From the NCBI GenBank assembly GCA_964035575.1, contig OZ037914.1:10176-74175 (forward strand): a DNA stretch of 64,000 nucleotides. The letters run 5' to 3'. This DNA is from Rhynchopus sp. YZ270_cl-10 (Eukaryota > Euglenozoa > Diplonemea > Diplonemida > Diplonemidae). Below the pieces are notes generated by a model. The model was not told the origin of the DNA and ran no database searches. It saw nothing but the letters and a program-made list of their open reading frames with translations. Shown piece by piece: positions 39,581 through 58,154 of the stretch. Each line of letters begins with the position of its first letter. Position 1 is the first letter of the stretch. Position numbers and translations under genes: made by a program.

Positions 39581-40162
39581 ATTTAGGACCAATTTTATTG
39601 GGAGGGAGGGGTAAATTTTTGGGGGACCCTGGTACTCCGTTAGCTCGTGGTTGCTAGGTAGTTTCACGGCAGTTTCTTCGTGTTAGCCCAGACGAAATGC
39701 TACAGCCCCACTACTCTCCCAAAGCTAACAGCCCGCGTTAGCGCTACCTCTATTCAGTACCTCGAGGGGAGCTCGAGAAGTGTACCCACATAGGGTTGTG
39801 GGTACCCTGGGCGTGGGGCCAGTTAACCCTAGCGCTTCGGCGTAAAATCAGCTGAATATGTAGCGAGTAGTGGATCGTCATTCATGAGACGATGGATTCC
39901 GTTGGCATGTGGCCTCGGAGTTTGGTATGGAGGTAGTTCCGCACGCATGATTCGGGCCGTGTTCCTTAGCTTTATAGTTTTCAACTTTTGGGGTTTCATT
40001 TCTTTCTTTTCTTTTTAAATTGTGTGTATGTTTTGTTTCGCATTGCTTTCAAGTTTCATATTCAAAAAGACCACACCCCCACCCTCTGCATTTTTTACTT
40101 ATCTTGTAGTCTTCTATCCCCCTCCTGTCGTTATCAACACTTACAGGAATATTATTCGGAAA
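39581..40162. other. Spacer and probable leader of the Helitron
   Basis: No gene is seen. A perfect hairpin lies at 39,782-39,805 (GTACCCACA, 6-base loop, TGTGGGTAC). Just before the preferred start codon at 40,163 there is a pyrimidine-rich run ending in CTTACAG (near 40,146), which could be a 3' splice site. The left end of the Helitron must lie in or before this stretch, but I could not identify a terminal signature. Confidence 0.45.
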
Positions 40163-43100
40163 ATGTGGATCTTGGCCCTTGTGGTAGTTGTGTTGGGGAA
40201 CGACACCGCCAGCAGCGTGCTGTTCTGCAACGTGCTGTGCTCAGAGCCTGCTTTTGTGTGCGACACAGACTTGTTGAAGAAGGTCACCTCAAGTAACACG
40301 AATCTTCTGCATGAAACAACTGCGACAGTCATCACGTGTCCAGCAGCAGTGCCCATTCTGAACGGGTCCACTGATGTCCTTTGCTGTGATGTGACGTGCA
40401 CGGTGTACGACTGCCCCACATTGGATCCTGGTCATGTGAACCTTCCTGCAATCTGCTGTGTGGAGACTTGCGACGCTCAGCTATCTTCTCGCTGTGGTAC
40501 AACACTCTCCACTTGTGTCGATGACTTGTATTGTCAGGAGAAACGTGTGTCGCACGCATGTGGAACGAATCTTCTGCAGATAGTAACTGCGACAGGCATC
40601 ACGTATCCAGCAGCAGTTCCCAGTGGCCACCAGCTGAAGACGGGTTCTGCTGGAACTGAGTGTTCAACGGGACTGTGTGACGGCGAGCTGTGTTGTGATG
40701 CTTACTGCGACAACAGTGCTTTTATTTGCGGTGCGAAACAGATGAAGCATAGCACTGCAGCTATCATGTGTGGGACTCTGTGCACAGATGCTCTGTTCTG
40801 TACGACGAGTTGTGCCGCGCACACATGTCCTGCAGTACATGCCCACGATGCGTTATGTTGCGATGCCTATTGTGACTTTACCGGCCACGTGTGTGATGCA
40901 GGCTATATGAAGAAGCAGACTGAATCTAATATCAATATCAAGTGTGGACCCACCAGTGTGTCGTGTTCTAATGACCTGTGCTGCGAGGCATTTGATTGTT
41001 CGGCGTCACAGGAGATGTTTGTGTGGACTGTGTCTTGGCTGTGGGCGTTGGTGATGTTCTCTTGGTGTGATGTCTGGAGGCACCACTCTGGGTCCCTGAG
41101 GTGGATGCGTCGCAGGAACCTTCGGAGGAAGAAATTGCGTCGCTCACTGCGCTGGCTGGCGAAGCAGTCAGCACTGTGGCCTCATGAACAGAATCCTGCA
41201 GCGCAATCCCGCAAACTGCGCACTGTTTTTGTCTCCCCCTTTGGCCTTGCAGGTGGGTGTGGAGATGACGTTCTGACCTCCCCTGAATTTGTGAAGCAGG
41301 CAGGTGAGGTCGACGACATGCTGCAGGAGTACAGTGCGCACAGGGTGGGAAGCACTGCTGAGGATGGCAACTGCGCCCTGGCGGCCCTGAATGCGGGAAG
41401 CAGCAGTACTGTTGTGGCAGACTTTGCGCAGGACAGAGCTGACATGTGTCGGGTGGCCGGGAACATTTCGGAGAATCTGTCCCTCGTGCTTGGTTCAGAC
41501 GATGCTCTGGTCAACTTCCTTGCTGGAGTCAGGGAAGGTCACAGGCTGAATCACTTGGGCCTGTACCTGTTTGCAGCAACACGTAATGTGAACATTGTGG
41601 TGGTGCAGCCACAGAATGTGATACTTGTCACCAGCGACTGCACCCCTGGTGGGAAAGGACGTGCGAAGCAGATCGCCAGCCGCAGGACTGCAGTAGTGTC
41701 TTTGTGCAATGAGCACTACGAAGCGGTTCTGCCTTGTGATGGTGGGGACATGAGTGTACTTTGCGCTGCTCTCCTCAAGTGCTCAGTCCTTGCGACCCTG
41801 GACCCTTGCAGCCTTGATGCCTCCCCCCTGCCAACGTCTTGTACCTCTGAAGGTGTATCTAAGAAGATGCATTCGAAGAAGGGTGAGTTTTTCTGTCCCG
41901 AAGATTCCTGCAAGGCGAGCATTCTTTGTGCAGCGAAAGGGCTAAAACCTGCTCCCTTCCTCAAGCACATCAAAACGCACCAGGAAGCAGATCTGCACTT
42001 CGACGACAGCGTCCTGAGACACTACGGGTTGACATCCTGTGGTAGTGAAGATGGCTGTAAGAGTGTTTTCCCGGAGACATGTGAGGTGTGTCCAACATGT
42101 TCCCGAAAATTGGGTCAACCTGTAACGTTAGAGATTCACTCCTGCGATACGTGCACTGCTTCTTTCTCCAGTGCGCACCTGCTACAAGGGCACAAGAATA
42201 AGCGCAAAAAAGCATTTGGGAATAGGCTTGTTTGCCCAGAAGTGGACGCTACTCCGCAGGCAGCAGTGTCTCAGTCTAGTGACACCCCTAGTGTGTGCCC
42301 TTTGTGCAAAGAGAGATTTTCTTCTGAGCGTGGCTACAAGAACCATGCGAGGACGGTGCAGGACGGTTTGTGTTGTAGGCTTCGCAAGCTCGCACCCATT
42401 GATGTGGATATGATTGAAGAAGATCCTGGGGTAGTCGGTGGTGGCAGTCATCGTGCAGTAGCCATTGATGTTGATATGGTGGAAGAAGATCCTGGGGTAG
42501 TCGGTTGTGGCAGTCATCGTGCAGGTCATGGAGGAGATCTTGGTGGTGGCGGTGGTGCAGGTGTTGGTGGTTCTGGTTCTGGTGTTGGTGGTCATGGTGC
42601 TCGGCTCTCAACACTGCAACGCTTTGCTTTTGTGTGCCCCGAGTGCCGTGTCGGCTTCACCATCCGACAGAATATGAGTCTGCACATCTGGAAGGTGCAC
42701 CCTGTGAAAGCTGTCACTGAGTATTTCACTGGAAATCCTGCCCACGCTGACCCTGTCAACTCTGGGAAGCCCTTTGCCTGTTTGTTGTGCTCAAAGCTTG
42801 CACGCAACGAGGATGATCTGCTTGGCCACATTGACACTCTGCACGGTGGCATTGAGGCGTACCGCTCAAGAGTTTTGTGGCATGTCGCGGAACAGGGCCC
42901 ACAGGATAGCACACTTGCTGCGATGCGGGAATTGATCGACAGTAGTGTGTCAGAGCTGAAGTGCCCTGGTGGAAACCCTCGTGCGCAGAATGACTGTTTG
43001 GTGTGCGCAAGATTGACCGATTCAGGTGATCTGAAACGGTTTAAGCTTTCCTCATTCGCACAGATGCATGCAGCCTTCCGTAAGATGTTCTCTGTCGAGA

Positions 43101-45579
43101 CGTACAGGGACGAGTTCTTGAGTGCCGACACAAACATGCCTGAGATTGAGTTGCGTCGCTCCAGTGTGAACGTGTCTAGTGTGAACCCTCTGTCTGGTGA
43201 GTTTGATTCTGTGGACTTGATGCTGCACCGGCGTGCCTACGACCCCGATTGCGAGGAAGGTCAGTGGGTGTGCAGTGAGTGCATGTCTACGCTTAGACGC
43301 TACAACGTCGCAAAGCCTGAGACGTACAAGATGCCTGCTGCAGCCATCGCAAACGGCTTGTTCTTGGGTAGATTGCATTCAGTTTTGTGTGAGCCCACTC
43401 GTGACTTTTGTCGTTTTGTTGCACTTGCTACACCCTTCCTCACATTGACACACGTGAAGGGTGTTGGGCGTGCGATGAAAGGGAACACTGCGATTCTGCC
43501 ATCAAAGATTGTGTCGGTGACAAAGAATTTGCCTCCCCCAACAAGGCTCATGGAGGATCATTTTGTCGTGGCATTCACATCTGGAGCAGCTGGTAGGCAA
43601 GGAAATGATCTCGCCAAGACGGTGAGGCGCTGGAGGCGAGTGAATACAGCAGACTACCTCTCCGCTGTCTCCTTTCTGAAGAAGAACTCTCCTGTGTACG
43701 CAAATGTCACTGTGAACGAAGATGCGTACCAAGCCATTTCTGATGGAGAGACACCCGGAGGCATCGAAGTGGATATAACGAAAGGTGGAGAGAATGAAAT
43801 GGATCAGGCAGAGAAAGAGCTCAAGAGGACCATATCGAGTACGCTTCCTGACAATGATGGTGACGAAGCCGAAACAGTTCATGCTGTCCATATGACTTCA
43901 GCCGACTTCATGTCGGATACTATGAACCTTGCTCCGGCACTGCGACGTGCGCATGACTTGCTGACAGAGTTAGATGCGGACAAGATTGACGGGCCAGAGA
44001 TCCAGGCTGCGTATTGTGCGGAGGTGAAAAAGACTTTTGAGGACGCCAAAAAACAGGTCACGGATTTGAGTGATGCTGCGTCGTCAGGGTCTGGTCGTCG
44101 TTCCATTGAACCTGTAGTATCATCTCTCTCTCCCTCTTCCACTCCTTCCATTGAACCTGTAGTAGTTCCTGCAGAAGTTGAGCAGGTAGACCCGCGTTTT
44201 GTGATTGAGATTGATCACGAGAATACGCTCACCATGTTTGACGACATGTTTTGGCCAAAAGCATTCCCTGAGTTGTTTCCTTTTGGTGTGCTTGCGACTC
44301 CGTATCTTTCGAATAGAAAGACGCCTTTGACATTGTCACAGTGGGCCTCGATTCTCCTGCATCGCTCAGAGATGGAGTATGGCACGAAGGCAAGTGCGGA
44401 CAACCCTCATCTGGAGGAGGAAGATGATGGCGGGGAGCTCTACGTCGCGCCGAAGCCGCGCTTCCGTGGACATGCTACGTTCATCTGTGTTGCGCATAAC
44501 CTGAACTACAGGTTGAATTCGCTGAATGCAGCAAAGGCACATGTGACGAAGTCCACGTTCTGCAAGACAAGTGATGCCATCTCGCGCCTTGTGTCTGACC
44601 CAAAAGTGTTGCTGGAAGCAGTAAAGACTCTGGAGAATGCGGGGTCGCTGTACGAGTCGCTGCGGCACGGGAACGGCGTCGACGAGGATCTGAAGAAAGT
44701 CTTGCGGTCAATGAACTTCTCTCAGGCATCTGTTGTGGGTTCCGACAGCCGGAGGGTGGCGATGCGGCACCAGGCAAATGCGTATTTGATGTTGTTTGGT
44801 TTGCCCCAGGTGTTTATGACACCAAACCTGACTGTGCGGAATGAGCTGGCGAACTTTGTGTACTCACAGAAGCAAGACTACTGCCAAGATGAAGCTCCCA
44901 CATTGCCTACTCTGTCTGAACTGAACAAGTCAGAGGCAACTGATCCTGTCGGTCATGTGAAGAAGTTTGGGGTGATGATGGACTTGCTTTTCCGCAAGCT
45001 TCTTAGAGTGAAGATACTGCAGCAGAATCTGCGGAAGGTTTGTGCGAGCGACTTGCGTCCTGGCTGCTTGGGCACATTGAGCGCGGCATTAGCGCCCTGT
45101 GAGACAAATGGGCATGGCTTTGTCCACCCTCACATGTTGCTTTTTGAGCACAGCATGCTGCATAAGAACAACAAGGTGAAGCGTCTTCTCTTTGCTGACA
45201 ACAGCGTTGACGAACACACTGTGCACCCGACCACGGAGCTTGTTGTTCCTGATGACGATTTGAACATGGACACCCCCATGGCAGATAACGAGAATCCTGC
45301 CAATAATTCTCCTTGTGCAACTGCCGCTGTGACCTCGGATGGTGTGGGTTCTGGTGGACCGGAGATGATTAGGGCACTGCCCGCTTATGTTGGGGACGTG
45401 GTAGAGTCCGCTATCCAGGATCTGCTTCCTCATGTGGCTGACAATGAAGGAGATGAGAGTATGCAATGTGATGACGTCTCTGAAGGGGGGGGTCGTGAGG
45501 ACTCTCCCCCTGTGCGAAGATATGACACTCAAGCTCTGATTGCGGCTTTGCAGGCTCTGGAGAAAGCCAGCTTGGATTA
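40163..45579 (+). CDS. Helitron protein, N-terminal part: OTU, zinc fingers, Rep HUH motif
   Basis: The frame is open from before 40,028. I prefer the ATG at 40,163 because it begins with a signal-peptide-like MWILALVVVVLG and follows a possible splice acceptor; ATG 40,028 is the alternative. Counting from 40,163: residues 18-283 are cysteine-rich with repeated LCCDAYCD-type motifs; 286-305 form a hydrophobic, Trp-rich segment; 312-330 are strongly basic. An OTU-like protease domain follows (DGNC, Cys 404; NEHY, His 518). C2H2-type fingers lie near 578-606, 663-680, 712, 826-847 and 873-894. A DUF6570-like region with the IANGLFLG motif spans about 1035-1123, and a Helitron Rep N-terminal region starts near 1343. 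The HUH motif GFVHPHMLLF has His 1655 and 1657. The natural frame stops at the target duplication; 45,580-45,592 is inserted sequence. The Rep tyrosines are on the other side of the insertion. Confidence 0.85.
41246..42150 (+). other. OTU plus zinc-finger module shared with the LINE
   Basis: This part of the Helitron frame begins at LAGG, contains the OTU-like catalytic motifs (DGNCALAAL and SLCNEHYEAV, Cys to His 114 residues), a LDPCSLDASPLP linker, a C2H2 finger (FFCPEDSC...HIKTH) and a second Cys-rich motif after YGLTSC. The LINE on the opposite strand at about 50,900-51,717 has the same order of motifs: LAGG, NGECMYVAL, SLLNNHYEEV, LDPKGLTATPIP, LFCPVPCC...HIGAH, LGLGQC. Confidence 0.8.
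42520..42600 (+). repeat. Gly/Val-rich low-complexity tract in the Helitron frame
   Basis: GGTGGT- and GGTGTT-type triplets encode a GGGGGAGVGGSGSGVGGHG-like linker between zinc fingers. Just upstream, a 72 bp segment coding IDVDMIEEDPGVVG and IDVDMVEEDPGVVG is tandemly duplicated (about 42,398-42,520). Confidence 0.8.
45570..45579 (+). repeat. Target-site duplication, left copy
   Basis: GCTTGGATTA here is repeated at 56,864-56,873 on the other side of the insertion. In both places it reads as L-D-Y of the Helitron protein frame. The left copy is followed by a T run, as expected for the poly(A) end of a LINE inserted on the - strand. Confidence 0.88.
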
Positions 45580-45635
45580 TTTTTTTTTTTGAAAACTTGG
45601 TTGTATTAGTGTAGCCACCCTAGAGTGTGCTCCAC

Positions 45636-45667
<32 letters not shown>
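45580..45667 (-). repeat. Two poly(A) tails in tandem (T runs on + strand)
   Basis: An 11-base T run directly follows the left target duplication. Forty-seven bases later there is a 30-base T run (45,638-45,667). On the - strand these are A tails at the 3' end of the LINE. The 47 bp between them may be the 3' stub of an earlier insertion, a tail-on-tail insertion, or a 3' transduced segment. Confidence 0.7.
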
Positions 45668-45668
<1 letters not shown>

Positions 45669-46452
45669 TTCCACATCAAACTGGACAGGGCAAGGGGGGT
45701 ACGTTTATAATGCACATGAAAGGCGCTTGGTCCGAGCGAAGCGAGGGCCAAAAGTCTTACAATCAGTACATGTGCCGGTTTAGTTAGAACGAGGCACAAA
45801 AGTGAATTAAACGAGGGAGATATTTGTCATCAGCATGTCGCCCTATTATGTATCGTTGTTTGCCGAGCGAAGCGAGGCATACAACTATATTTAGCTCTAT
45901 GACAATTTGGGATAAAGGAGGGGTGAACATTAACACGGGAGAGGCAGGGGAGAATATAGACTGTCCAGTCTGTGTGGTTTTGCTGTATTTCCAGTATTGG
46001 TGCCCAGCTGGTTCTGGAGGGGAGGAAGGGGCGGGATGGGGCTTTCTTTTTACAATACGAAGTTCCTTTCTTGTTACTTTTGTTTTGTCTCTTGTAGTCT
46101 TTTTTGTTTGGATGATTAACGCCAGTAGCGACCCCCCATGGAACTCGTAGGGGATGGGGTGGGGGAAAAAATCTCCGTCGCTTACTCCTAGGCCGACGCC
46201 CACAGACAAACCGCCTCCTTGGCTTACTCCTGACGTTTTCTGTGAGGGGGAAGATTTGGAATTTACATACAAGGGGCTTGACAACAGGGGGATTACACAC
46301 ATGTATCTAATGGGAGGGGTTGGGGGTAAAAAGGAAACAGGGAACTAAACAGGTGTTGCTACACACAAAAGTTGGGGTGGGGGAAAATAACAGAGAAGGG
46401 AAGGGCAACAGTGCCCACATAAACCACAATCACAACCAATCGCGAGGCCCTT
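45668..46452 (-). other. Probable 3' untranslated region of the LINE
   Basis: No gene is seen between the main frame stop and the T run. The sequence CCGAGCGAAGCGAGG occurs twice (about 45,733-45,747 and 45,863-45,877), each time flanked by short complementary bases (GGTCC/GGGCC and TGCC/GGCA), so each can form a small hairpin. LINE 3' untranslated regions often hold stem-loops recognised by the reverse transcriptase. That role here is inference. Confidence 0.55.
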
Positions 46453-49400
46453 CTATTTGAAGGTCGCCTCCATCATCAGCACCAGGACCGCCCTAAGCGC
46501 CCCGTACTGACTCGTCTGCCGTCCTCCGACGCGCCCCAGCTCCTCCCGCTGATCCCACCACGCGTCCAGCGCCTCGTACGCCACCTCCGGTGCCAAGGGA
46601 GTCATTCCCTCTCGCCTGGTCCCTCCCCTGGGGAAGAAGCAGTCCGCCCACTCTTCGACATTTCTCGGCACCCTGTCCCCTTCCTTCTGGCTGTGTGGGA
46701 CTAACCCTTTCGCCTCCACATCCGACCCTCGCGAGATAGGGGGAGAAGGCCGCCTTGCTGTGGTCTCCGCAGACCTGTCCTCCACTACACCGGAGCGACG
46801 AGTGTGGTTCCCCTGCGCCCGCCGCGAAGTCCCAAGGGTGGTCAGCTTCGTCCTTCTTTCCGCGTGGGACTTAGCCGTCCATCCACCAGTCTTCGCTGAA
46901 CCCAAGTGGTGGTCACCAGTCAGAGCTGTTGGTGTGGTGTTGTAGCTCTGCTCTGATGGCCCCCAGACGAAGGATTCTGCTGCGGTTGCGGTGTTGTTGT
47001 CCATGGTGGTGTCGTGGTCGGCGCAGTCGGCGGAATCCTCCTCATCCATAACCTCCTCCTTCACCTCCGTTGCCGCGTCCTGTGGGGGAGCTGGGTTGCT
47101 GTTGTAGTAGCTACCTCCCACTGTCTGCGATGTTGTCGGCTGAACTGGCTGAACTGGCTGAACTGGCTTTGCCCTAAGCACACACTTTGCGTTGGCGCTC
47201 CCACATCCCTCACACCATGTGCGCTCGCAGGAACTACAAAACCAGTGGGGGACACTACATTCGGTGATGAGTGCGCAGTTTTCGCACGTGAGCAATTCCC
47301 CCTGTCTCCCCGGGAGCTCCTCCATCCGTGACAGCGCTCCGGTGCTGTGGCACTGCATCTCTGGAAGGGGGGTGTCGGGGGCAAGGCTTCGCAGATATGC
47401 AAACGTGTTGTCTGTCATGCATAACGGCGAGAAGTGGCCAGCCTCGTGAGCTCCTGTGTGCAGCACTGCTACGGCCCCGTTCGACTTGCTGGCTGGTCTA
47501 TGGATGTGCACCTTAGAGTCCGATGACACGACCGCCACAATGACTACCTGCAAAGCCCGTGCCAGACCCGCCAGTGCTGTCTGGTCCGCCCACGACCTGC
47601 GATCCCTGTTCCCTGCCAGGCTCATCCATCGCACCCAGGTCGCGAGGTCGGGCATCGCATTTCTCGCCAGGTCAGCATCTCTCTTCACTCTCTCCACCGC
47701 CAGGGACCGAAGGGTCGACGATGTCACCACCTTCCAGCTCCGCACTGACCAGCACACTGCGTCGAACGCACAGTCTCCTACTCGGAACGGCACGGGCACC
47801 TGCGGTCGGGACAGCCCCCACTTCACCAAGTTGGCCTCCAGTTCGCTGTGGGGGGTTGGGTCCTGTGCTGCTGTCTCTGGCGCCGTTTCCTTCTCGTTGC
47901 CTGTCTCTGGCTCCTCCTCCGCACTCACCCTGATGTCTCCCTGGTGGTCGTCTGTCACTTCCAGGTTAGGTAGATGGTCGGGGGGCAAGCGTATCAAGTC
48001 CCCCTCTTCCGGGTCGACGGTGGGATCTAAGTCCACACGCTCTCGCAGAGGACCCCTCAGGCAACCAGTCAGAGACCCTCGATCCGTCGCGGCCTTCCCG
48101 ATCTGTCGCTGCAGCGTCGTCCCTAGCCCCCAATTCCACCTCTGTGACATCTCCACTCTGTTCCCAAGCTTCCTGTCCGCTGCGAAACGGAGCATCTGCT
48201 GCCATATCGACGCCGCCGCGGGTCCCAGACCTCCTGTGGTCTCCAGGGCGAAGGGTGTGAACGCCAGCCGCTCCGCCGCACACGCGTCACCATGCTTCTT
48301 CCTCTTGGCAGTTTCCGCCTTCGTCGCCGCGTACCCCTTCGCGACTGCGGCACCCTGCACCATCGACGCTGACGTCGGCGTCCACACAGTCACATCGATA
48401 GCTCGTCCTCTCGACTCCCCGACCCCTGTGGACAGCAGAATGTCAGCGGGCTTGTTGTTGCCCAGGATGAGGTGGTTGGGTTCCAGGATGGGGCTCAGAC
48501 CTGCCTCATTTGCTGCTCCATACACATAATCGCGTACTGAGTTATGTCGCAGTATACGATGCCCACCCATTCTGCAGGCGAAGATGTGGTCCCCCCTGGT
48601 GTCCATGGGCTGGTTGCATTGCCTGCATGAGACACCCTCCGCGTATATGGGGAGGTGGAGGCGGAGTCTGGCTGCGGCCTTGAATGCAATCGGAGGGATG
48701 TAGTGCTCCCAGGTGGGGGGTGCAGTAAGCCAGGACCCTGCTTGGGGGAGGGCCAGAGAATTGAGACGCGCCTTGTCGTACGCATCACCCTTGACGAAGA
48801 GGTCCCGCAATTGTTCCTCCAGGATCCCTGCAGACAGATCACGTTGACGCAGGGGGACGGCTGGCTGCAGCTTGGGGTCAATCCTAGCACCTTCAGCCAC
48901 TTGCTCGTTGTACAGCGTTGCCGTCCGTTCCCATCCTTCGGCGTCCCAGGTGAAGCTGGGGTCCAGTTCGGTGCACAGCTGGTGCAGGCCGCTCCTTGCT
49001 CCCATGGCTGCTGCAGTCCAGTGGTCGCGGATGCGGCGCACGCCCATGCCCCCTACCCTACATGGCAGTGCGGCCTGTCTCCGTGCTTCTTCCGGCAGGC
49101 CTCCATCCTCATCACCAAAAAGCGCGGCCAGGGCGGCGTCTACCTCCTTGTCGTACTGGCTGAGGTACTTGTGGGTGCACGCGTGACCAATGGCTCTCAT
49201 GTAGAAAACCATGCGTGCAAACCCCTCGCACTGACGGAGTAATGTCAGTCCAGCCTGCGAGTCAGACACCTTCTGCAGCAGACGCAGTTGCACCGCGAAT
49301 TCCTCCACCTTCTTCTCCATGTACGCTTCGCAGTACTCGTCGTCCCCGATTGGCGCCCCCAGGAACGCAAAGCCTCCATACTTCACGCTCATCACTTTTC

Positions 49401-52400
49401 CTTCACAGGCTGAGCAAGTCTCCGCCAAGTCAGTGGTGTGGCTGCACACGGGGAGGCCAGCTCTGTCCAGGTCCAACGGAGTCTGCTGTCCTAGGGCGAT
49501 GACTTCACACTTTGACAGCTTCACCTTCAGCCCCAGCTCCGCACTGCGTGTCCTCACTAACTCCAGCGCTCGAGCCACCGCCTCTGGGTTCCCCATGATC
49601 GTCCCATCATCGAGGTACCAGATGCTACAGTCGATGCCCTGGACTGCACGCACTTCGTCTGTCAGTGCTTTGATCCCCAGGGAGAAGAGTAGGGGCCCTG
49701 CGGGGTCGCCTTGCTGCGCGCCTCTGGTGGATGGGATCATCTCGTCCCCATACACTAGCCCGGTGTGGGAGTTGTAGCACCATTCGACCCACGGTGAAAT
49801 GGACGGGAGATATTTCCTTGTGGCTTCCAGAAAAGTCTTGCGAAAGATGCTGTTGAATGCGTTCTCGTAGTCAATCTGTACGATCACTTTGTCGCTCCCC
49901 TGGTGTCGTTTTGCGTATGCTGCCACAACCATTGTCGCCGCTTCCAGTCCACCGTCCACCGCCACCCCAACTTGTCTCCCTGGCAGCAGCACTCCTCGTG
50001 CCTTTTCCCTCACAGACGCCACCTCGATCTTGCTCACGACTCGCCGAAGTGTGTTGCCTGCAGAGATGGGGCGGACGTCGCCTTGGTCACCCTTCTTTAA
50101 CGCCACCAGAGTAGCTCCTGCCATGAACATAGCTGTCTCGGAGGGGGCTTTCCCGCGTCGCAGCAGGTCCAGGACTTGCGTCATCAGTGGCAAGATGTTC
50201 AGGTCCGGGTGTTTGACCATCCACCCCTTGAGGTGATCCCCGCGCAGACCAAAGGGACCTGGAGCAGAGCCCTTTGCCATGCTATTTATGGCTTTGAGGG
50301 CGGCGATCGGCTTCAGCGGCTCGGAAGCAATTTCCGGCAGAGAAGTGGCAGGTTGGGGTTCCTCATGGGGGTGCTTTCTGCGGAGGATGTCTGTGGATTC
50401 CTCAGTACGCTCTGCCAGCCCACCCTTGTGGAGGCGGCTCATCCCTGCTGCCATCCTCCCATTCCGCACCTCCCGGACCATCGCCTTCTCCCTTTCTTCC
50501 CACGTTGGTTCCTTCCGCTCCTTCTCCTTCTTCGTACCGCCTGTGCGATTCGCAGCTGCTCGCCACATTGCTGCGATCTCACCTTCTCTCCACTCATCCA
50601 CATCCTTCTGCCGCAAGACTGCCACCTTCGTCTTGAGGTGCTTCCCACCTCGCTTCGCCGGTAGGACCAGCTTCGCGAACATGCACAAACGTTTCCAGCT
50701 TGCCTCATCGCCAACTGCGGCCACATCCTCAAGTGCCTGGGTGAACTCCACAGCGGATAGACGGTCGATGCTCGTGGGGATCGCATCTGTTGTCCTGATG
50801 GGGATTTGAGCTATCTCCCACCACTCCGGCAAGTCAACGTCGTCTGCCTTTTCCACTGCGGTGCGTTCCCTGGGTGTGGGCTTTGCGATCGCCTTTACCA
50901 GTTTCGCACACTGAAGACATGTCTCCTTCGATGCCGACCGTATCCCCCCACACGCTTCACACTGTCCTAACCCCAACTTGTTGAGGGTGTCGTGGGGGAT
51001 GTGGTCGCCGGAAGACAGGTGTGCACCGATGTGTGTGCGCAGGCCGGGAACAGAGAAGGGCTGGGGACGGTGTAGACTGCTTCCGTTGCAACACGGAACA
51101 GGGCAGAAGAGCCTCGGTGCATCAGCCCCCAGAGGAGAAGGCGACTCCTTCGTCATGGCAGGGATGGGTGTTGCTGTTAGGCCTTTCGGGTCAAGCTCTG
51201 CGAAGGGGGCCGACTGGACCATTGCCAGGGCGTTCTTTGGGTCCATTTGCACTTCCTCATAGTGATTATTGAGGAGTGAAACTACCCTGACGCGGCGGTC
51301 TTTCTGCGTCCGCAAGTCTTTCGATGAGGCTGCGGGGTTGATCGTCACCACTGGATTCGGCCCAGGCTGCACTACCGCTATCGTGGTGGACCATGCATTT
51401 GCTGCCAGGTGTAGGGTGAGGTGGTTGCCCCACACCTCAGGGTTGGTGAGGCCGTCAATGAAGCTTGACAGCTGTGCCTCGGTCTCGAAGTAGCGTCTGA
51501 GACCGGTCTTCACCTTCGTGACCCGCGCTCTGTCAGCCAGCTCAGTGCGTGCTTTGCTGACATCCAAGTACAGCGCGTTCTTCTTACCCAGTAAGGCCAC
51601 GTACATGCACTCGCCGTTGGCTGCGTTCGGCACCCTCTTCCCCCCATGCACCTCGAGGAATGCGTCAAGGTTTGCCGCCTCCTCCGGGTTGATGTCCCCG
51701 TCTGCTCCACCTGCCAGCGCCCCGGGCCCCAGGCTTATGCTCTGAGGTGACAGCTCCCACCCGTCCCCTGTCCCCGCCGGTCGCCTCAACCTCTGCATGA
51801 AAACCCACACCCTGCTGGCAAGTACTCGCAACCACAGCCTCCCGCTACGTGCTCTGTATCGGCCCTGTAGGAGCCCCTTCCTCAGCAGCACACTCAGCAG
51901 CTCTGCGTCCCGGATCAGTGCACAACCCAAAGCCCGTGGCGCCGATCTCCCAAGCTCATACCCCACGCAAACCAGAGCCCAGATGGCCACCCACTGCAAA
52001 GCCACTCTCACAACGGCTGCCCTTATCCTGCGGAAAAGTTGAGAGGGCGGACGCTTGCATGGCGCCTTGCGCCGACGGAACCTGCTCGCCTGTGCCTTGG
52101 TCCAGTTCAAGGACCTGTGACCTCGGCGCGTCCTCCTGGTCCCCCTCCTACCCACCAGCCACAATATGAGGTGACTGAGGGTAGGGGCGCGTCTGTCCTT
52201 CCACATGTCCAGGACCGCGAAAGACACAAACACACCCCACTCAGGTGCCTCGGCTACCCAGCGGGGGTCTGGTCGGCGCAGAGAAGAAAGGCGTTCCCAA
52301 AGGATGCTCCACCAGTCAAACCCAAGCCCATGTTCTGCACGCCCCATGTGAACATTGGGGGTGATAAAGGTCCCCCACACCCGTAACGTCACACAGTAAC

Positions 52401-52749
52401 TCTGTCCTTCTCGCCCCGCAAGGCTGGCCCCGAACACCAGCATACCTCGCTCACCCCCACCTACAGTGTTGTTGCTGCAGTTGCTGCTGCTGCTGTTGCT
52501 GTTGCTGTCGGTGCTGCTGCAGGTGCTGCTGATGCCGTTGTTGTTGCTGGTGTTACGGTTGTTGTTGTAGTTGCTGTTGTTGCTGCTGATACTGTCCGCC
52601 CGCACATCCTGTGTCCGCCCGCGCATCCGCTGTCTGCCACCGTTGTTGTAGTTGCTGTTGTTGCTGCTGATGCTGTCCGCCCGCACATCTAGTGTCCGCC
52701 CGCGCATCCACTGTCTGCCACTGTTGTTGTAGTTGTTGTTGTTGTTCAC
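46453..52749 (-). CDS. LINE polyprotein: OTU, zinc fingers, RT, RLE endonuclease, second OTU
   Basis: The frame has 2,098 codons from a GTG at 52,749. The first in-frame ATG lies in an Asn-rich 27-residue repeat, so translation probably starts upstream or after splicing. Residues, counted from the GTG: Asn/Ser-rich repeats 1-100; hydrophobic segment near 250-268; LAGG 346; OTU-like domain with Cys 381 (NGEC) and His 496 (NNHY); zinc fingers near 549-575 and 595-613. The reverse transcriptase has a FNSIF motif near 965, a QQGDPAGPLLF block and YLDDG near 1046. A CCHC motif (CRQCNQPMDTRGDHIFAC, 1371-1389) is followed by a PD-(D/E)XK endonuclease (KPADILL near 1437, RAIDVTV near 1452), the order seen in R2/NeSL-type elements. 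A second OTU-like domain has Cys 1660 (VGDC) and His 1772 (GHFS). A Cys-rich zinc motif spans 1818-1846. Beyond that I recognise nothing. It would reverse transcribe its RNA at a nicked target. The frame is uninterrupted, which suggests a recent insertion. Confidence 0.88.
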   Translation of the reverse strand: MNNNNNYNNSGRQWMRGRTLDVRADSISSNNSNYNNGGRQRMRGRTQDVRADSISSNNSNYNNNRNTSNNNGISSTCSSTDSNSNSSSSNCSNNTVGGGERGMLVFGASLAGREGQSYCVTLRVWGTFITPNVHMGRAEHGLGFDWWSILWERLSSLRRPDPRWVAEAPEWGVFVSFAVLDMWKDRRAPTLSHLILWLVGRRGTRRTRRGHRSLNWTKAQASRFRRRKAPCKRPPSQLFRRIRAAVVRVALQWVAIWALVCVGYELGRSAPRALGCALIRDAELLSVLLRKGLLQGRYRARSGRLWLRVLASRVWVFMQRLRRPAGTGDGWELSPQSISLGPGALAGGADGDINPEEAANLDAFLEVHGGKRVPNAANGECMYVALLGKKNALYLDVSKARTELADRARVTKVKTGLRRYFETEAQLSSFIDGLTNPEVWGNHLTLHLAANAWSTTIAVVQPGPNPVVTINPAASSKDLRTQKDRRVRVVSLLNNHYEEVQMDPKNALAMVQSAPFAELDPKGLTATPIPAMTKESPSPLGADAPRLFCPVPCCNGSSLHRPQPFSVPGLRTHIGAHLSSGDHIPHDTLNKLGLGQCEACGGIRSASKETCLQCAKLVKAIAKPTPRERTAVEKADDVDLPEWWEIAQIPIRTTDAIPTSIDRLSAVEFTQALEDVAAVGDEASWKRLCMFAKLVLPAKRGGKHLKTKVAVLRQKDVDEWREGEIAAMWRAAANRTGGTKKEKERKEPTWEEREKAMVREVRNGRMAAGMSRLHKGGLAERTEESTDILRRKHPHEEPQPATSLPEIASEPLKPIAALKAINSMAKGSAPGPFGLRGDHLKGWMVKHPDLNILPLMTQVLDLLRRGKAPSETAMFMAGATLVALKKGDQGDVRPISAGNTLRRVVSKIEVASVREKARGVLLPGRQVGVAVDGGLEAATMVVAAYAKRHQGSDKVIVQIDYENAFNSIFRKTFLEATRKYLPSISPWVEWCYNSHTGLVYGDEMIPSTRGAQQGDPAGPLLFSLGIKALTDEVRAVQGIDCSIWYLDDGTIMGNPEAVARALELVRTRSAELGLKVKLSKCEVIALGQQTPLDLDRAGLPVCSHTTDLAETCSACEGKVMSVKYGGFAFLGAPIGDDEYCEAYMEKKVEEFAVQLRLLQKVSDSQAGLTLLRQCEGFARMVFYMRAIGHACTHKYLSQYDKEVDAALAALFGDEDGGLPEEARRQAALPCRVGGMGVRRIRDHWTAAAMGARSGLHQLCTELDPSFTWDAEGWERTATLYNEQVAEGARIDPKLQPAVPLRQRDLSAGILEEQLRDLFVKGDAYDKARLNSLALPQAGSWLTAPPTWEHYIPPIAFKAAARLRLHLPIYAEGVSCRQCNQPMDTRGDHIFACRMGGHRILRHNSVRDYVYGAANEAGLSPILEPNHLILGNNKPADILLSTGVGESRGRAIDVTVWTPTSASMVQGAAVAKGYAATKAETAKRKKHGDACAAERLAFTPFALETTGGLGPAAASIWQQMLRFAADRKLGNRVEMSQRWNWGLGTTLQRQIGKAATDRGSLTGCLRGPLRERVDLDPTVDPEEGDLIRLPPDHLPNLEVTDDHQGDIRVSAEEEPETGNEKETAPETAAQDPTPHSELEANLVKWGLSRPQVPVPFRVGDCAFDAVCWSVRSWKVVTSSTLRSLAVERVKRDADLARNAMPDLATWVRWMSLAGNRDRRSWADQTALAGLARALQVVIVAVVSSDSKVHIHRPASKSNGAVAVLHTGAHEAGHFSPLCMTDNTFAYLRSLAPDTPLPEMQCHSTGALSRMEELPGRQGELLTCENCALITECSVPHWFCSSCERTWCEGCGSANAKCVLRAKPVQPVQPVQPTTSQTVGGSYYNSNPAPPQDAATEVKEEVMDEEDSADCADHDTTMDNNTATAAESFVWGPSEQSYNTTPTALTGDHHLGSAKTGGWTAKSHAERRTKLTTLGTSRRAQGNHTRRSGVVEDRSAETTARRPSPPISRGSDVEAKGLVPHSQKEGDRVPRNVEEWADCFFPRGGTRREGMTPLAPEVAYEALDAWWDQREELGRVGGRQTSQYGALRAVLVLMMEATFK
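50900..51717 (-). other. OTU plus zinc-finger module of the LINE
   Basis: This segment is collinear with the Helitron module at 41,246-42,150. The clearest match is RRVRVVSLLNNHYEEV against RRTAVVSLCNEHYEAV, 11 of 16 residues identical by eye. The Cys-to-His distance is 115 residues here and 114 in the Helitron. The distance from the His to the first Cys of the C2H2 finger is 53 here and 60 there. Confidence 0.8.
52580..52746 (-). repeat. 81 bp coding repeat, two copies
   Basis: The 81 bp unit encodes a 27-residue repeat of the type MRGRTLDVRADSISSNNSNY plus Asn/Gly on the - strand. Two copies lie at the start of the main LINE frame. Three more lie at 54,181-54,425. Confidence 0.88.
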
Positions 52750-54180
52750 TTGTCCCCTTTGCCCTCCTCCCCTGAAGAAGAAGTGGGGAGGCGCAGGTCA
52801 GGCTGAGGACCTTTCCGCTGCTAGCCGTCCTACACCCTTTTTACACATACCTGGGGTGTTTCCGACCAGCAGCCCCTCGGTCTCCTGGTTGTGTCCTTTT
52901 CAGACACGCCCTTCCACCGAGAGCACAGCTCACTACCACCCGATGGCTTCTTCCGTATCACAGAAACTTCCGAAGTCCGCGGGGTGTGTAACTCACTGTG
53001 GCCCGACTGTACATTGAGCCCTCTGCTTGAGAGGACCGGCTGGTGACCCAGTCTGTAGCGATCCCATGCGTCCCAGTTTGTGGTTTCACGCACTGGTGGG
53101 ACACAGCCAGCTCGCGCTGACCACTCCAGTCGCCCGGAGGTGGAACCGACGGTCTGAACCGCATGAATCTGCCGACCCAATGCGATCTTTGACCGTTAGC
53201 CAGCCGATTACTCGACCTGACCTCTGCTCGGCAAGTTGGTCACGCCTGTCTGCAGGGGAGTGACTCCCCACAAGTATGCATCCGACACAACTCCCTAACA
53301 GATTCACCAGCCTAGCCTGTTCACATCCCAACCGTCGCGGTTATGTCACCACTCACTAGTGTCGGAGTCTGTTACATGTGAGCCACAACATCGAACGAGT
53401 GCTGCTCACAAAGGCACCACCGCAGCAAATAGCGGTGCAGTTGCTTGCAGTCGTCGAGTGTGCTCACCATGTGGGTAGTCCCTGACTACACCGGCCTCTC
53501 TCTCCCTAGAGGCCGTTGCAACGGTCACCCAGACTCCAACGCGGACAGGAGTGGCTACAGAAGTCTTTGATGGGGGCTTTTACATGGGAGGCACACCCTG
53601 ACCTGGACGGACCAGTTCTGTGGCTGTGGATCACCCCTGTGGATTCAAACAGTGGACGCACCCGGTGCGTCACTGCAGACACCCAGCCAAGGTCCAGGGA
53701 GGACGACATCTCCTGAGCGTACCGACAGCATCCGTGAAGTCCCGAAGGCCAACGCAGCCGCTGCAGACGTTCGGAAGAAGCGCCTCACCCATCGTAGATA
53801 GCCCTGACAGCAGCCACAAGCGTGCAGTAAGAACCACACAATGCAGATACAGCAGTCACCCAGTGAGATGGTCCAGGTCCCCGTCAGCAAGCCGCCATTG
53901 GCAACTACCAAACACCAACCTCTCAGCCACCCCTGTGTGTCCTTTGCTAGTGTGTGTTGACATACCTGGAATTCCGGATGCTAGGTGAGGACTGTCGTCC
54001 CCGTACCACGCACCACCCACTGTCTCCGTGGAGCAGCCCGGGTGATGCGCCGACTAGGAGGTTACACGCCAGACGTTGTCTCGTCTGCTGGTCAACGGGG
54101 CAACAAACCCACCAGGGTCCCCTCTCGGGAACGCACGCCTCCTGTTAGCAGCTACCCGTCGGGGGGCCTAATCCCCTGGG
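52747..54180. other. ~1.43 kb segment splitting the 81 bp repeats (insertion or intron)
   Basis: The 81 bp repeat stops at 52,746 and resumes in register at 54,181, so this stretch was inserted into the array or is spliced out. It is GC-rich with no convincing gene. On the - strand it would begin TCCCAGGGG and end GACAAGTG, so it lacks GT...AG borders at these edges. I found no terminal inverted repeats, poly(A) or clear target duplication. Its nature is unknown. Confidence 0.5.
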
Positions 54181-54964
54181 AGCTGCTGATGCTGCCCGCC
54201 CGCACATCTAGTGTCCGCCCGCGCATCCAGTGTCTGCCACTGTTGTTGTAGTTGCTGTTGTTGCTGCTGATACTGTCCGCCCGCACATCTAGTGTCCGCC
54301 CGCGCATCCACTGTCTGCCACTGTTGTTGTAGTTGCTGTTGTTGCTGCTGATGCTGTCCGCCCGCACATCTAGTGTCCGCCCACGCATCCAGTGTCTGCC
54401 ACCGTTGTTGTAGTTGTTGTTGTTGTTGCTGCTATCAAAGCTGCAGCCGCTTGGGTTGTTGGGCACAGGCCTCTTTTTGGGGTAATAATGGGGGGGAATG
54501 GGGGTGCACCTGCAGCTTCTGTAGCCGCTGCACATGAAGCCCTTGCGGCCATTGCTGCAGGTGTAGATGTTGCTGGTGTGGTTGTTGGAGCCGCTATTGC
54601 TGCAGTAGACGCTGCCATAGAGGCCATCACTCCAGTCATGGCTGCTCATGTTGCTGCAGCGAGAACGTGGTACCTGAGAGTGCTGAGTTGGTGTTGAGGA
54701 GCCCACTCGCGATACGTGCCTGCCGCAACCGTGGGAGGTACTGATGTTGATGGCAGTGCTCCTGCTCACGATGCTGCTGCTCATGCTGCTGCTGCTCATG
54801 CTGCTGCTGCTCATGCTGCTGCTGCACATGCTGCTCCTGCTCATGCTGCTGCTGCTGCGCATGTTGCTCATGTTGCTGCACCAGCTTCGGCTGTCACCCC
54901 CGCCATCATCCATGGCTCCACACAGGAGCACCATAGCCCAAAGCTGGGCACTCCACCTGCACAT
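54152..54964 (-). CDS. Low-complexity N-terminal frame of the LINE (hypothetical)
   Basis: The - strand frame from ATG 54,964 starts MCRWSAQLWAMVLLCGAMDD, which resembles a signal peptide. It continues as Ser/Met/Cys-rich low complexity encoded by GCT/CTG-type triplet repeats, then a stretch ending KKRPVPNNPSG, then an Asn tract and three copies of the 27-residue repeat. It leaves the repeat and stops at 54,152 in the 1.43 kb segment. Because the main LINE frame begins with the same repeat, the two were probably one protein before the segment arrived, or are joined by splicing. The frame could also be a by-product of triplet repeats, since the + strand is open over much of the same stretch with Ala/His-rich frames. 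I do not recognise a family. Confidence 0.4.
   Translation of the reverse strand: MCRWSAQLWAMVLLCGAMDDGGGDSRSWCSNMSNMRSSSSMSRSSMCSSSMSSSSMSSSSMSSSIVSRSTAINISTSHGCGRHVSRVGSSTPTQHSQVPRSRCSNMSSHDWSDGLYGSVYCSNSGSNNHTSNIYTCSNGRKGFMCSGYRSCRCTPIPPHYYPKKRPVPNNPSGCSFDSSNNNNNYNNGGRHWMRGRTLDVRADSISSNNSNYNNSGRQWMRGRTLDVRADSISSNNSNYNNSGRHWMRGRTLDVRAGSISSSQGIRPPDG
54181..54425 (-). repeat. 81 bp coding repeat, three copies
   Basis: These three copies are nearly identical to the two at 52,580-52,746. The 81 bp length keeps the frame, and the phase across the intervening 1.43 kb is consistent with one original array of five units. Confidence 0.88.
54740..54895. repeat. CTG/CAT triplet-rich simple repeat
   Basis: CTGCTGCTGCTCATG-type blocks repeat imperfectly about every 15-18 bp. 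They code Ala/His on the + strand and Ser/Met on the - strand. Confidence 0.85.
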
Positions 54965-55207
54965 CTTCACCACCAAGAAAACAAAAAAGTCAAAACAGTA
55001 AAAAAACAAAAGGACAAGGAAGACAAAATACACGTCTCTACCTGCACTTCGCCAGAGAGGAACTACTCAACGGCCTTCTCTCTGCCCAGGACACGCCACT
55101 AGGAGGCGACAGGTAGGACCCACACAAGGGGGAAAACAAGTGGGGGAAAGGGGATAAGGGGAGAAGCAAAGGACAAGATGGGGTAGTGTGTAGCAAAACG
55201 TGTGTGC

Positions 55208-55210
<3 letters not shown>

Positions 55211-55251
<41 letters not shown>
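55211..55251 (-). repeat. T41 homopolymer, possible poly(A) tail of another insertion
   Basis: There are 41 consecutive T residues on the + strand. If this is an A tail of a - strand retroelement, that element would occupy sequence to the right (55,252 onward). The flanks show no matching duplication that I can find. A simple repeat is the alternative. Confidence 0.5.
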
Positions 55252-55252
<1 letters not shown>

Positions 55253-56863
55253 GTGTTGTCAGGGCGTTCGCTATCGCCATCGTTTTTTCCTGATCGTGGC
55301 GAAATGCCAAAAACCCCGAAATTTTCGTTTTTTTACTAGTGCTTAAAATAGGTCAAAAAAATTTTCCCGCCGGAGAGAAGTTAGTTCGTGGGTGAATCCC
55401 TGGTACTGAATGGTCAAAAAAAATTTGCGATTTGCGCGTGATCCCTTCCCCAGCACAAGTGATATTACAGCTGAACTTTCCTGATACTAAAACCAGCAAA
55501 ACGATGAAGAATTTCATCAATCCCCCCTCACTGAGGGTCTCTTTGTGTTGTTTAATCAAGCAGATGTACAAGAGAGAGGCATCCGTCATATGAGACTTCA
55601 TCCTTATTTTGATTATTTTCAACTCTCTGCCATTGAAGATAGAGTTGACACGAGCAGTGACACCTTCTATAACAGGGGGTACGGTACACCTTCAGCAGAC
55701 TGCAGGATTGAGGAGCGAGCGGGAGTGCTGGGGAAACTTCCTCTCACGGCAGGCGGGTTTACGGATGATTTTGAGTACAGTGGACACCCCTCTGCGACCC
55801 CCGGAGGGGTCTACAGGGTGGTGGGGAGAAATCTCTCTCTCTCTCTCTCTTTTTTTCCCCCTTTATTTATTTATTTATTTATTTATACAGGGTTTCGCCC
55901 CGGTGGGGCGAAGCCCTGGGGCGAAATAAAACGTCATTTTTTCAGGAAAAAAATTTTTTAACGAAAAAAAATATTTTTCGCCCCGGGGCGAACGCCCTGG
56001 GTGTTGTTCAACTTAGCCCTAGGCTCGCTTTTTTTTATCTACATCCAGTGACAGAGGGGGTACTTACTAGTCAAGCGAGTATGTAAACAGCTAGATGTCC
56101 AGACAAGGGCACTTTACTATTGTACTGGCAAGACAGTGCCTGAAAACACAGTTAGTGGCACTAAAATAGAAAGCATGTGGGACAACTACAACCAACACTT
56201 CCCTGCAAATAAGCAAAAGGGTCGTATGTGAGTGCAATTTTTCCCAAAAGGAAAAGGGGAGGGGATGGGACGGGAGGGTTGCTCTGTCTACCGGTGTAGT
56301 TTTATTTTGCTTTGTCTTGGGGAGGGGAGGGGAGGAGAAGGAGGGGATTGAGTGAGCCGTTTCCTCTGTAACACACAAACAAATAAAAAGGAAGTTCCAT
56401 AATCTTTTTAGTAGTTTTCTTTTTGGTGAAAATTTTTGAGAACTTCAGTAAGTGTGACCTGACCCGACTGACTGACACCCAAAGGGTAAAACAACAATAA
56501 CGCACAACAAAATCAACAACAACAATGGTGGGTCTCGTGCTTACCTGTGGTGGTTTTGAAAAATGAAAAATTGAAATTGACCTTCACAAGGTAAAAATGA
56601 AAAACTAAAGGAGTGAAAAAAGGAACTCAAAGGACAAGAGTTCTGTACAAACTCTACTCTACTGCACAATCTATAAAAGTGGCCCAATGGCTCCTGATGC
56701 CACTGGCCTGGCTCTTAGACAGGTCTTACTCCGAGACTGCCCTCTACCCTCAGAGCCTCGTCCAAGGGGTAAGGGCCGTCGCTGGGGTAGACCCGTCCTA
56801 GCCAGCAGCCAACCAAAAATATTAACAAAAAGGAAGGGGGGCGGAAAGGGGGGAAAGGGGGGG
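55252..56863. other. Non-coding distal (5') part of the inserted block
   Basis: No gene is recognised. It contains a (TC)n run at about 55,832-55,850, a (TTTA)n run at about 55,862-55,886, a foldback at 55,888-56,001, G-rich tracts near 56,320-56,350 and a G-rich terminus at 56,835-56,863. It may be the 5' leader of the LINE or a separate, older insertion. A 138-codon frame at 55,545-55,961 runs into the simple repeats and is not convincing. Confidence 0.5.
55888..56001. repeat. GC-rich foldback element
   Basis: An inner hairpin at 55,888-55,918 (CAGGGTTTCGCCCC against GGGGCGAAGCCCTG, one mismatch) is followed by an outer inverted pair: CCCTGGGGCGAAAT near 55,913 matches TTTTTCGCCCCGGGGCGAAC...CCCTGGG near 55,973-56,001. 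It looks like a short palindromic repeat, possibly a MITE. Confidence 0.65.
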
Positions 56864-56873
56864 GCTTGGATTA
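56864..56873 (+). repeat. Target-site duplication, right copy
   Basis: GCTTGGATTA is the second copy of the 10 bp at 45,570-45,579. Immediately after it the Helitron frame resumes with V-R-I-Y-Q-H. Confidence 0.88.
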
Positions 56874-58065
56874 CGTGCGAATCTATCAGCACGAAAGCAT
56901 GCAAGCGGCAGCAGACTCTGCGCATCTTGAGGGTGAGGTCCCTCGTTTACCGTTCACTGCTGCTCAGAAGGCGCGCACTGAGACAGATGCCTTGACTGGT
57001 GAGGAAGTCTATAGGATGAATCCAGTTAACCTCACAGTGACAGAAGAGTTTCCACTTGACGGTCACATTCTTGAATGGATACGTAAAGGCGGAGATAAAG
57101 ATGTTCTGCACTACACCATTCCTCTGTCGCTCTGTGCTCTTGGGATGCAACCGGAGTACAGGCAAGGCTTGCGGTTAAGTAATGCGTTGTGGGCGAAAAG
57201 ATATGTCCAGGATGTTTTGGAATGTGTCTACCGAAGCCATATGCACAAATGCGCAGACACTTGCAAAAAGGGAAAGTCAAACCTGTGTCGGTTCAGGTAC
57301 TGGTCGACCGCTCGCGTCTTGCAGCAGAAAAAGAAGGGTGATCCTCCTGTGGAGGCTGTTACTGTTGTGTATGGCAAGGCACTTCGCGATGCTCCTGGCC
57401 CAGACGCTGACAATGTTGTGTGTAGTGCGCGTGACCACCCTTTTGTGTCGAACTTTCTTGCGACTGTGCAGGTGGTGCTTCGATGCAACTGTGACGTCCA
57501 GTGCTTGGCATGGACATTTGGTGAAGTTCTGAAGAAGCTTAGTGAGAGCAAGTCAGCTCCGGGCTTGCGCAGTGCTGCTGAGAACATCTTTCTCCAGACT
57601 GCAAAAAATGCGCACGTGATTGTTTTCTACATCACGACGTATATTAGTAAGGTCGCTCCTTCTGGAAAAGGAATCTTTGAGGCCCTACAGAAAATGCCTC
57701 AGGTGATGGCGAAGAAACAGGCAAAGATGCATGCGAATGCTGCCACTGCATCTGTGACAAGCAAAAGACTGGAGCGCGACAAGCATGTGATCACTGCCCT
57801 GAGCCAGCAGTTGAACCGTGGGAGGGTGCTTGCCTTTTCGGACATGGTGAACCAGCTTATCGGGAACGACTACTTCTCGTCCCATGCAACATGGTTAGTG
57901 TACGTCGCTCCGCTTCGCGACGCAGTATTGGATTCGCAGAGGGCAGCCAAATCTGGAACTGTGGAAAGGCCTGCCTTCCCCGAGCAACACCTGTCTGCGC
58001 TTGTTGCCTGGAGGAAGAGGGGGATTGAGAGGTTCCTTCAGTTGTTCCTTCTGGAGAGACTGTAG
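56874..58065 (+). CDS. Helitron protein, Rep C-terminal part with paired tyrosines
   Basis: This frame continues the Helitron protein after the insertion; it has no natural start of its own. The motif FYITTYISK has tyrosines at 57,628 and 57,640, four residues apart, followed by Lys. This is the two-tyrosine (Y2) catalytic motif of Helitron Rep, which nicks DNA and forms a 5'-phosphotyrosine link. A Cys/His cluster (HMHKCADTCKKGKSNLCRFRYW near 57,240-57,300, continuing over more than 20 residues in total) matches the Cys-rich stretch usual in Helitron Rep. The partner HUH motif lies 11.3 kb upstream near 45,125. The frame stops at 58,063; the next frame overlaps it from about 58,029, so one single-base change lies near the G run at 58,018-58,023. 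Confidence 0.82.
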
Positions 58066-58122
58066 ACAATGAAACAGCACTTGGGGAGATGTACGAGGAA
58101 GTCGCAAACCCGCAAACTGCTC

Positions 58123-58154
<32 letters not shown>

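Follow-up and report, generated by a model that had tools for sequence, protein, structure and literature searches.

A LxGG–OTU–zinc module shared by a diplonemid Helitron and the LINE inserted in it, and its probable passage from LINEs

The DNA analysed here, referred to throughout as the window, is a stretch of 64,000 nucleotides from contig OZ037914.1 of the diplonemid Rhynchopus sp. YZ270_cl-10, and it holds a Helitron interrupted by a long interspersed nuclear element (LINE), each encoding an OTU cysteine protease followed by zinc motifs. The first part of the Helitron frame (40019–45592, plus strand; 1857 residues) leads from a hydrophobic, Cys-rich N-terminus through an LxGG motif, the OTU domain and the zinc motifs to DUF6570 (PF20209, residues 1104–1236) and Helitron_like_N (PF14214, residues 1480–1708). 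Past the LINE, the Helitron resumes at 56874–64000 (plus strand) in several overlapping frames that encode a PIF1 helicase and then a Ulp1-like (C48) peptidase before leaving the window; Pfam recognizes both the Rep (PF14214, E 2.4e-11) and the helicase (PF05970, E 1.5e-8). The LINE, a family A element of 11,284 bp, occupies 45580–56863 on the minus strand, and its 2114-residue frame (46453–52797, minus strand; translation, Pfam and hydropathy) is ordered as a hydrophobic N-terminal part, LAGG, a first OTU domain (OTU1), zinc motifs, a reverse transcriptase (RT), an R2-like C-terminal region and a second OTU-like domain (OTU2). Its RT (residues 901–1140; 49378–50097, minus strand; RVT_1 E 4.4e-18) has an R2 protein as its nearest solved relative (E 1.8e-6).

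The insertion is flanked by a 10-bp target-site duplication, GCTTGGATTA, with copies at 45570–45579 and 56864–56873 (plus strand); a search of both strands finds this sequence twice in the window, where 0.14 occurrences are expected by chance. A run of T, the poly-A of the minus strand, directly follows the left copy on the low-coordinate side, and rejoining the flanks without the LINE leaves the Helitron frame open across the insertion site. Across the genome (152 Mb in 126 contigs), full or near-full LINE A modules at 100% rounded protein identity occur at no fewer than 40 places, the window included, and the 981-bp module DNA is identical in 29 of 30 fetched loci, counting the reference L045. 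From the duplication, the open joined frame and these identical modules it follows that family A is young and that its insertion into the Helitron is recent.

In both elements, the module opens with an LxGG leader and continues with an OTU cysteine protease, a C2H2 finger and a zinc ribbon of four Cys. The Helitron copy, on the plus strand, has LAGG at 41246–41257, an OTU domain with approximate limits 41282–41755 (C452 at 41372–41374, H566 at 41714–41716) and a zinc region at 41894–42100, where the columns of C626, C631, H650 and H654 and of C674, C680, C691 and C694 are invariant in nine aligned rows. The LINE copy, on the minus strand, has LAGG at 51706–51717, OTU1 at approximately 51238–51684 (C397 at 51607–51609, H512 at 51262–51264) and a zinc region at 50908–51105 (C565, C569, H589, H593, C613, C616, C627, C630). 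A preliminary description of the window had proposed eight collinear motif pairs, and all lie where it placed them, including RRTAVVSLCNEHYEAV and RRVRVVSLLNNHYEEV, identical at 11 of 16 residues, and Cys-to-His spacings of 114 (C452–H566) and 115 (C397–H512); its residue ranges, 362–660 and 346–615, count from other starts and become 401–705 and 352–644 in the open frames. Over these latter ranges, BLASTP of the two frames finds 94 of 315 positions identical (30%; 93.6 bits, E 2e-22), the match starting just upstream of LAGG and stopping past the last zinc-region cysteine pair, which bears out the claim that the whole OTU plus finger module is common to a class II and a class I element. The profile alignment that the description had called for agrees: with hhalign, five modules of LINE families A, A2 and B, taken as a profile, match the Helitron module at E 2.5e-20, and the 282 aligned columns start on the LAGG side and take in both zinc motifs, whereas the same profile matches L001, a single-copy OTU of this genome, in the OTU part only (149 columns, E 1.8e-6). 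Given these pairwise and profile E-values and a span that extends beyond the catalytic motifs, homology rather than chance is virtually certain on the sequence comparison.

The module is widespread among the LINEs of this genome. In what follows, H denotes the window Helitron; A, A2, B, C-a, C-b and C-c are LINE families, and L and P numbers are individual loci and proteins. Genome scans with the Helitron module (best 114 of 279 candidates) and the LINE module (best 122 of 294), whose counts are lower bounds, place the module in at least six LINE families, namely those just listed. Among the matches listed, the Helitron module retrieved itself in the window, a single fragment on C36 that is 81% identical, and modules of C-type LINEs at 33–37% identity; the LINE module retrieved families A, A2 (53%), B (35%) and C (34–35%). 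Bit scores against the Helitron module descend from 148–158 for C-b/C-c and 141–145 for C-a to 93 for A, 79 for A2 and 42–56 for B. In A, C-a, C-b and C-c the module is followed by RVT_1 within one chain, and RVT_1 is also present on P0005, which matches A2; family B, read in pieces of 1.3–1.4 kb with the RT outside them, was assigned by the LINE-A-like sequence after its module. A scan for further OTU families near RVT_1 (best 150 of 739 candidates) lists families of 1747, 2034 and 1619–2452 residues with both domains in one frame, and others in which an OTU frame of 955–962 residues lies ~4 kb upstream of an RVT_1 frame of 1597–1617 residues.

Three Helitron families are related to the window Helitron by their Rep half: C76 (two copies), C91:1036546 with C91:1052307, and C91:1104134 with copies on C65 and C78. 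The module is absent from all three, as judged from one copy per family over 3.6 kb around and upstream of the N-terminal half, where the best match, a chance one, has E 0.03. These siblings instead carry an acidic stretch after Met-Asp, a putative start, followed by fingers and a Gly-rich stretch. Since their similarity to the window Helitron starts at residue 869–876, the module and residues 1–868 as a whole are extra in the window Helitron.

Pfam recognizes the OTU domain in the LINE (PF02338, E 7.7e-7), and its scan of the Helitron frame did not detect one. AlphaFold models of the Helitron module (predicted local distance difference test, pLDDT, 69.2; predicted template modelling score, pTM, 0.70) and the LINE module (pLDDT 73.0, pTM 0.59) both have an OTU fold as predicted structures: Foldseek ranks OTUD1 first for the Helitron model (E 6.7e-5), then DUBA and OTUD3, and OTUD3 first for the LINE model (E 1.2e-5), then OTUD1 and DUBA. 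By sequence, the module profile matches OTUD3 at E 0.024. The predicted catalytic Cys and His (C452/H566 in the Helitron, C397/H512 in the LINE) are invariant in nine rows, and a Glu or Asp stands two residues past the His in all 14 module rows.

Ahead of the OTU domain, [LM]xGG opens the module throughout the 14-row alignment, two or three residues past a Pro. It reads LAGG in H and A, MRGG in A2 and one B row, LRGG in the remaining B rows, LTGG in C-a, LVGG or LCGG in C-b, and LCGG in C-c (LYGG in P0007), such that the second position varies (A, R, T, V, C, Y) around a fixed L/M and GG; the GG is invariant in 8-, 9- and 6-row alignments, and the flanks differ strongly among families. In LINE C-c (L023; P0007 residues 360–435), WTGG in a C-a-type repeat is followed by an acidic stretch and then LCGG/LYGG, as if the leader had been duplicated or recombined. 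The motif was counted strictly, as [LM]xGG 28–45 residues before the OTU Cys with at most 60 upstream residues read, and 11 of 14 element-family representatives have it, at 31–39 residues. Among these 11 are the 2034 family, which has an RT, and three multi-copy families (2035, 1411 and 849) with no RT in the sequence read. Shuffling the upstream stretches 5000 times with composition kept gave a mean of 0.44 of 14 and a maximum of 5, and the motif occurs in none of the two OTU2 domains and none of the seven low-copy OTUs read, which are taken as probable host genes because of their low copy number. The low-copy OTU L096 has LFGG 55 residues before its Cys, out of range and with stops between. 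The set of 14 excludes L072, L073, L003, L087, L093, L088 and P0014 (described below) and includes L085 and L002, maybe one family; the set of seven is without C22:829938, C4:500839 and C4:268588, at least three further low-copy places, and L089 belongs to neither class.

A tentative proposal is that the OTU domain cuts its own chain at LxGG. It is preferred here because LxGG resembles the ubiquitin tail and viral papain-like LXGG sites, and because in most families, namely H, A, A2, C-a, C-b and C-c, the motif is preceded by a hydrophobic segment whose distance from it varies widely. In the Helitron this segment, signal-anchor-like by hydropathy, would comprise residues 49–70, from Met49 (40163–40228, plus strand), ~340 residues before LAGG. 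The coronavirus papain-like protease (PLpro) has LXGG as its site, the same sequence with which ubiquitin, ISG15 and NEDD8 end (PMC7464072), and arterivirus and tymovirus OTUs cut their own polyproteins (EAV PLP2 and TYMV PRO), while the nairovirus OTU does not (PMC3968130). The parallel lies in an OTU or papain-like fold, a long chain of its own and an LXGG that matches the ubiquitin tail; the difference is that the viral cleavage is established, whereas that of the transposons is predicted. The element protein would be made as one long chain with its hydrophobic part at the N-terminus; the OTU domain, acting like some viral OTU and papain-like proteases, would cut its own chain behind LxGG, and the part that handles nucleic acids would be released from the N-terminal one. 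Ubiquitin on element proteins may be a further substrate of this active site; catalysis, cleavage, membrane attachment and deubiquitination are all predicted properties of the module.

Several observations weigh against self-cleavage. Confidence in the structural models is moderate (pLDDT 69 and 73). The Asp of DGxC, kept as D449 in the Helitron, is changed in LINEs A–C, where the counterparts read NGEC, QGNC, SDNC, TNDC, VHDC and ITDC, so that it is a candidate third catalytic residue at most. No hydrophobic segment precedes the motif in the LINE B piece read or in P0014. Three of the 14 representatives lack [LM]xGG (the 1747 family, the 1890 group and the 955 family, which has VAGG at 40), the 28–45 range was set after the motif had been seen, and in one LINE B copy, L074, kept outside trees and counts, unrelated sequence is joined just past the motif position. 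It is conceivable, and to be taken seriously, that the OTU is only a deubiquitinase that shields element proteins or counters the host, with LxGG as a structural element or pseudo-substrate. Such a role has been put forward for the VTD and OTU domains of Helitrons (PMC9741609), and the ten-residue blocks around LAGG, modelled at pLDDT 75 and 73, fit a structural part, but a variable second position between a fixed L/M and GG is more like the consensus of a cleavage site than a piece of the fold, and the motif's absence from OTU2 and the low-copy OTUs points the same way.

A second, unlikely explanation is that the enrichment is due solely to descent from a single OTU lineage and to G-rich linkers. 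The families do share ancestry and are not independent trials, which also tells against self-cleavage, and some upstream stretches are G-rich; LxGG is accordingly treated as a shared trait rather than as 11 independent gains. Composition is, however, held constant in the shuffles that yield 0.44 of 14, and GG is retained while its flanks change strongly across families.

Public proteins add one relative from outside the genome. Among the matches listed, the Helitron query found itself only; the LINE query found at least two proteins, which match this genome's LINE families A and A2, and the profile query (best 8000 candidates by shared words) at least nine, of which eight, from ENA, match its C-type LINEs and the ninth is P0014, a metagenome R2-like LINE protein of 1619 residues (E 2.3e-18, with 28% of residues identical across 14% of the query; RVT_1 E 2.7e-5). 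By eye, P0014 has an OTU (DGNGDC…NHFDAV) and a finger. Its residues 25–110, ahead of the OTU, contain a stretch resembling the second half of ubiquitin and then PLGGG. This piece matches Pfam ubiquitin at E 0.028 and YukD at E 0.0032, both below the cut-offs, and the whole protein matches YukD only, at E 0.15; its PDB matches, mostly to HIV protease, were judged to be chance. P0014 was left out of the LxGG count because the ubiquitin match is below the cut-off and because ~136 residues separate LGGG from the OTU Cys. A search of viral contigs, for which P0014 was the sole query, gave no match. One might speculate, with less than even confidence, that LINEs first and then a Helitron came to use OTU self-processing at an LxGG of their own, P0014 keeping a ubiquitin-like stretch with LGGG; if true, a viral-type polyprotein strategy exists in elements without long terminal repeats (non-LTR elements) and was handed to a rolling-circle transposon.

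Where the Helitron module came from was addressed with trees. The unrooted tree holds 14 modules and separates A, A2 and B from H plus C (support 100/99); L074 (the leaderless B copy), L010 (a Helitron fragment of 106 residues) and L077, with other copies of families A and C that are nearly identical, are not among the 14. A sister pairing of H with the window LINE, as expected if the latter were the donor, is rejected (approximately unbiased, AU, test, p 3e-6). By its aligned sequence, the Helitron copy is closest to LINE group C and not to the inserted LINE; of the origins suggested by the preliminary description, exchange between element classes is favoured, probably in the direction LINE to Helitron and with a partner other than the inserted LINE. 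Rooting of OTU-core trees with single-copy OTUs, the 849/1054 and 955 families and OTU2 domains places H inside C, at 97/92 in the first such tree and at bootstrap values of 98/98, 95/92, 91/92 and 98/98 with four outgroup sets, and with C-b/C-c at 92/86, 90/92, 78/83 and 77/80. LINE-only monophyly, a grouping first tested on the P0014-rooted tree, is rejected with all four (AU p 0.0165, 0.0103, 0.0193 and 0.0179), the first OTU-core tree having been known before this test. The LINE RT tree agrees in its order, with A+A2 set apart from C-a and C-b+C-c, although C forms one group at only 67/72. These trees give good confidence in a direction from LINE to Helitron, with a C-type LINE as the most likely donor.

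Against this direction must be set that in the unrooted tree H may lie within or beside C (48/17; C without H, p 0.40), that rooting with P0014 only has support of 74/70 and leaves LINE-only monophyly at p 0.15, that the four outgroup sets overlap in their rows and so are not four independent tests, that branches are long, and that the trees are without animal Helentron OTUs. The fragment on C36 is, moreover, the only other Helitron-module trace among the matches listed, and the ratio of nonsynonymous to synonymous substitution rates against it, ~0.6–0.8 over 90 codons, is uninformative on constraint of the module. The unrooted tree and the P0014 rooting would both be compatible with the reverse course, in which an old Helitron donated the module to a LINE ancestor; this is improbable nonetheless, being rejected under the four richer, overlapping outgroup sets and requiring losses of the module in the sibling Helitrons. 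Separate capture by LINE and Helitron from one host or viral gene, the other origin offered by the preliminary description, is very improbable: low-copy OTU frames exist in the genome and the nearest folds of both modules are cellular OTUs, but L001 matches only in its OTU part, without LxGG and zinc motifs, neither module scan has a host gene with the full module among the matches listed, and capture is disfavoured because H falls within the LINE copies in the rooted OTU trees. OTU1/YOD1 proteins have the architecture UBX–OTU–finger, and a host origin from them was tried and left as an idea, the C69 gene having only weak UBX-like matches (OTU1_UBXL at E 0.15) and the stretch of it that was read lacking a finger.

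Passage of the module from LINE to Helitron, combined with self-cleavage at LxGG, is on balance the best overall explanation, by a little more than even chances. The LxGG–OTU–zinc module would be an old standing part of a non-LTR group in this genome, and one Helitron lineage would have acquired it, with a C-type LINE as the most likely source, fused at the N-terminus ahead of the finger array, DUF6570 and Rep/helicase that the Helitron already had. Only afterwards would a recent family A LINE, with its own version of the module, have landed in that Helitron by chance. Such a history amounts to passage of a module from a retrotransposon to a rolling-circle DNA transposon, traced with rooted trees and with sister Helitrons that show the prior state. 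If the OTU cuts at LxGG, its role in transposons is partly self-processing, beyond the removal of host ubiquitin.

The ingredients of this explanation, namely LINE-to-Helitron domain transfer, OTU domains in Helitrons and Ulp1 in restriction-like-endonuclease LINEs, are each already known. The AP (apurinic/apyrimidinic) endonuclease of Helentrons came from CR1 non-LTR retrotransposons, LINE insertion into a Helitron being one proposed route of domain gain (PMC4067079). There too a LINE domain is fused into a Helitron protein; here, unlike in that case, it is an N-terminal OTU plus zinc module, from LINEs with an RT nearest R2, and the frames scanned have no Pfam match to AP endonuclease. Animal Helentrons and Ginger1 transposons likewise carry an OTU on a DNA transposon (PMC4067079, PMC2836005, PMC9741609), but the sections available describe no LINE source, LxGG leader or linked zinc module for them. 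NeSL and Utopia LINEs resemble the present LINEs in having an N-terminal ubiquitin/SUMO-type cysteine protease and, putatively, in the restriction-like endonuclease that they also carry; they differ in that the peptidase, described in nematode elements, is Ulp1-like and not OTU (PMC4640811). No description of an OTU in non-LTR elements was found in the accessible sections of the open-access literature searched, including PMC2836005, PMC4067079 and PMC11943222.

The LINE has candidate CCHC-like and restriction-like endonuclease motifs at 48358–48636 (minus strand), assigned by eye, the R2 alignment here being a non-significant second stretch. Its OTU2 (47413–47820, minus strand; C1676, H1788), also assigned by eye, has no LxGG and is conserved in LINE C-a; a Cys-rich stretch follows it. 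An OTU2 after the RT is found in both C-a and C-b, with a Pfam OTU match in the C-terminal part of C-b. The Helitron's Ulp1-like peptidase lies in its C-terminal part (60329–64000; PF02902 E 2.5e-5), and by eye the same motifs recur farther along, so the element may have an OTU and tandem Ulp1 domains. At its other end (40163–41080), the Helitron appears by eye to encode a membrane-protein-like part, signal-like and Cys-rich, then Trp-rich and hydrophobic, then polybasic, of which residues 49–73 only pass the hydropathy threshold. Many places of LINE A and C seem, by eye and uncounted among the matches listed, to lie near contig ends, and those of LINE B to be mostly contig-internal. Upstream of the Helitron frame, the window carries an array (31982–36390) in which a 47-bp unit, strongly skewed in GC, occurs ~94 times, and its first 30 kb (1–30000) are very even in base composition, with a GC content of 0.41–0.43.

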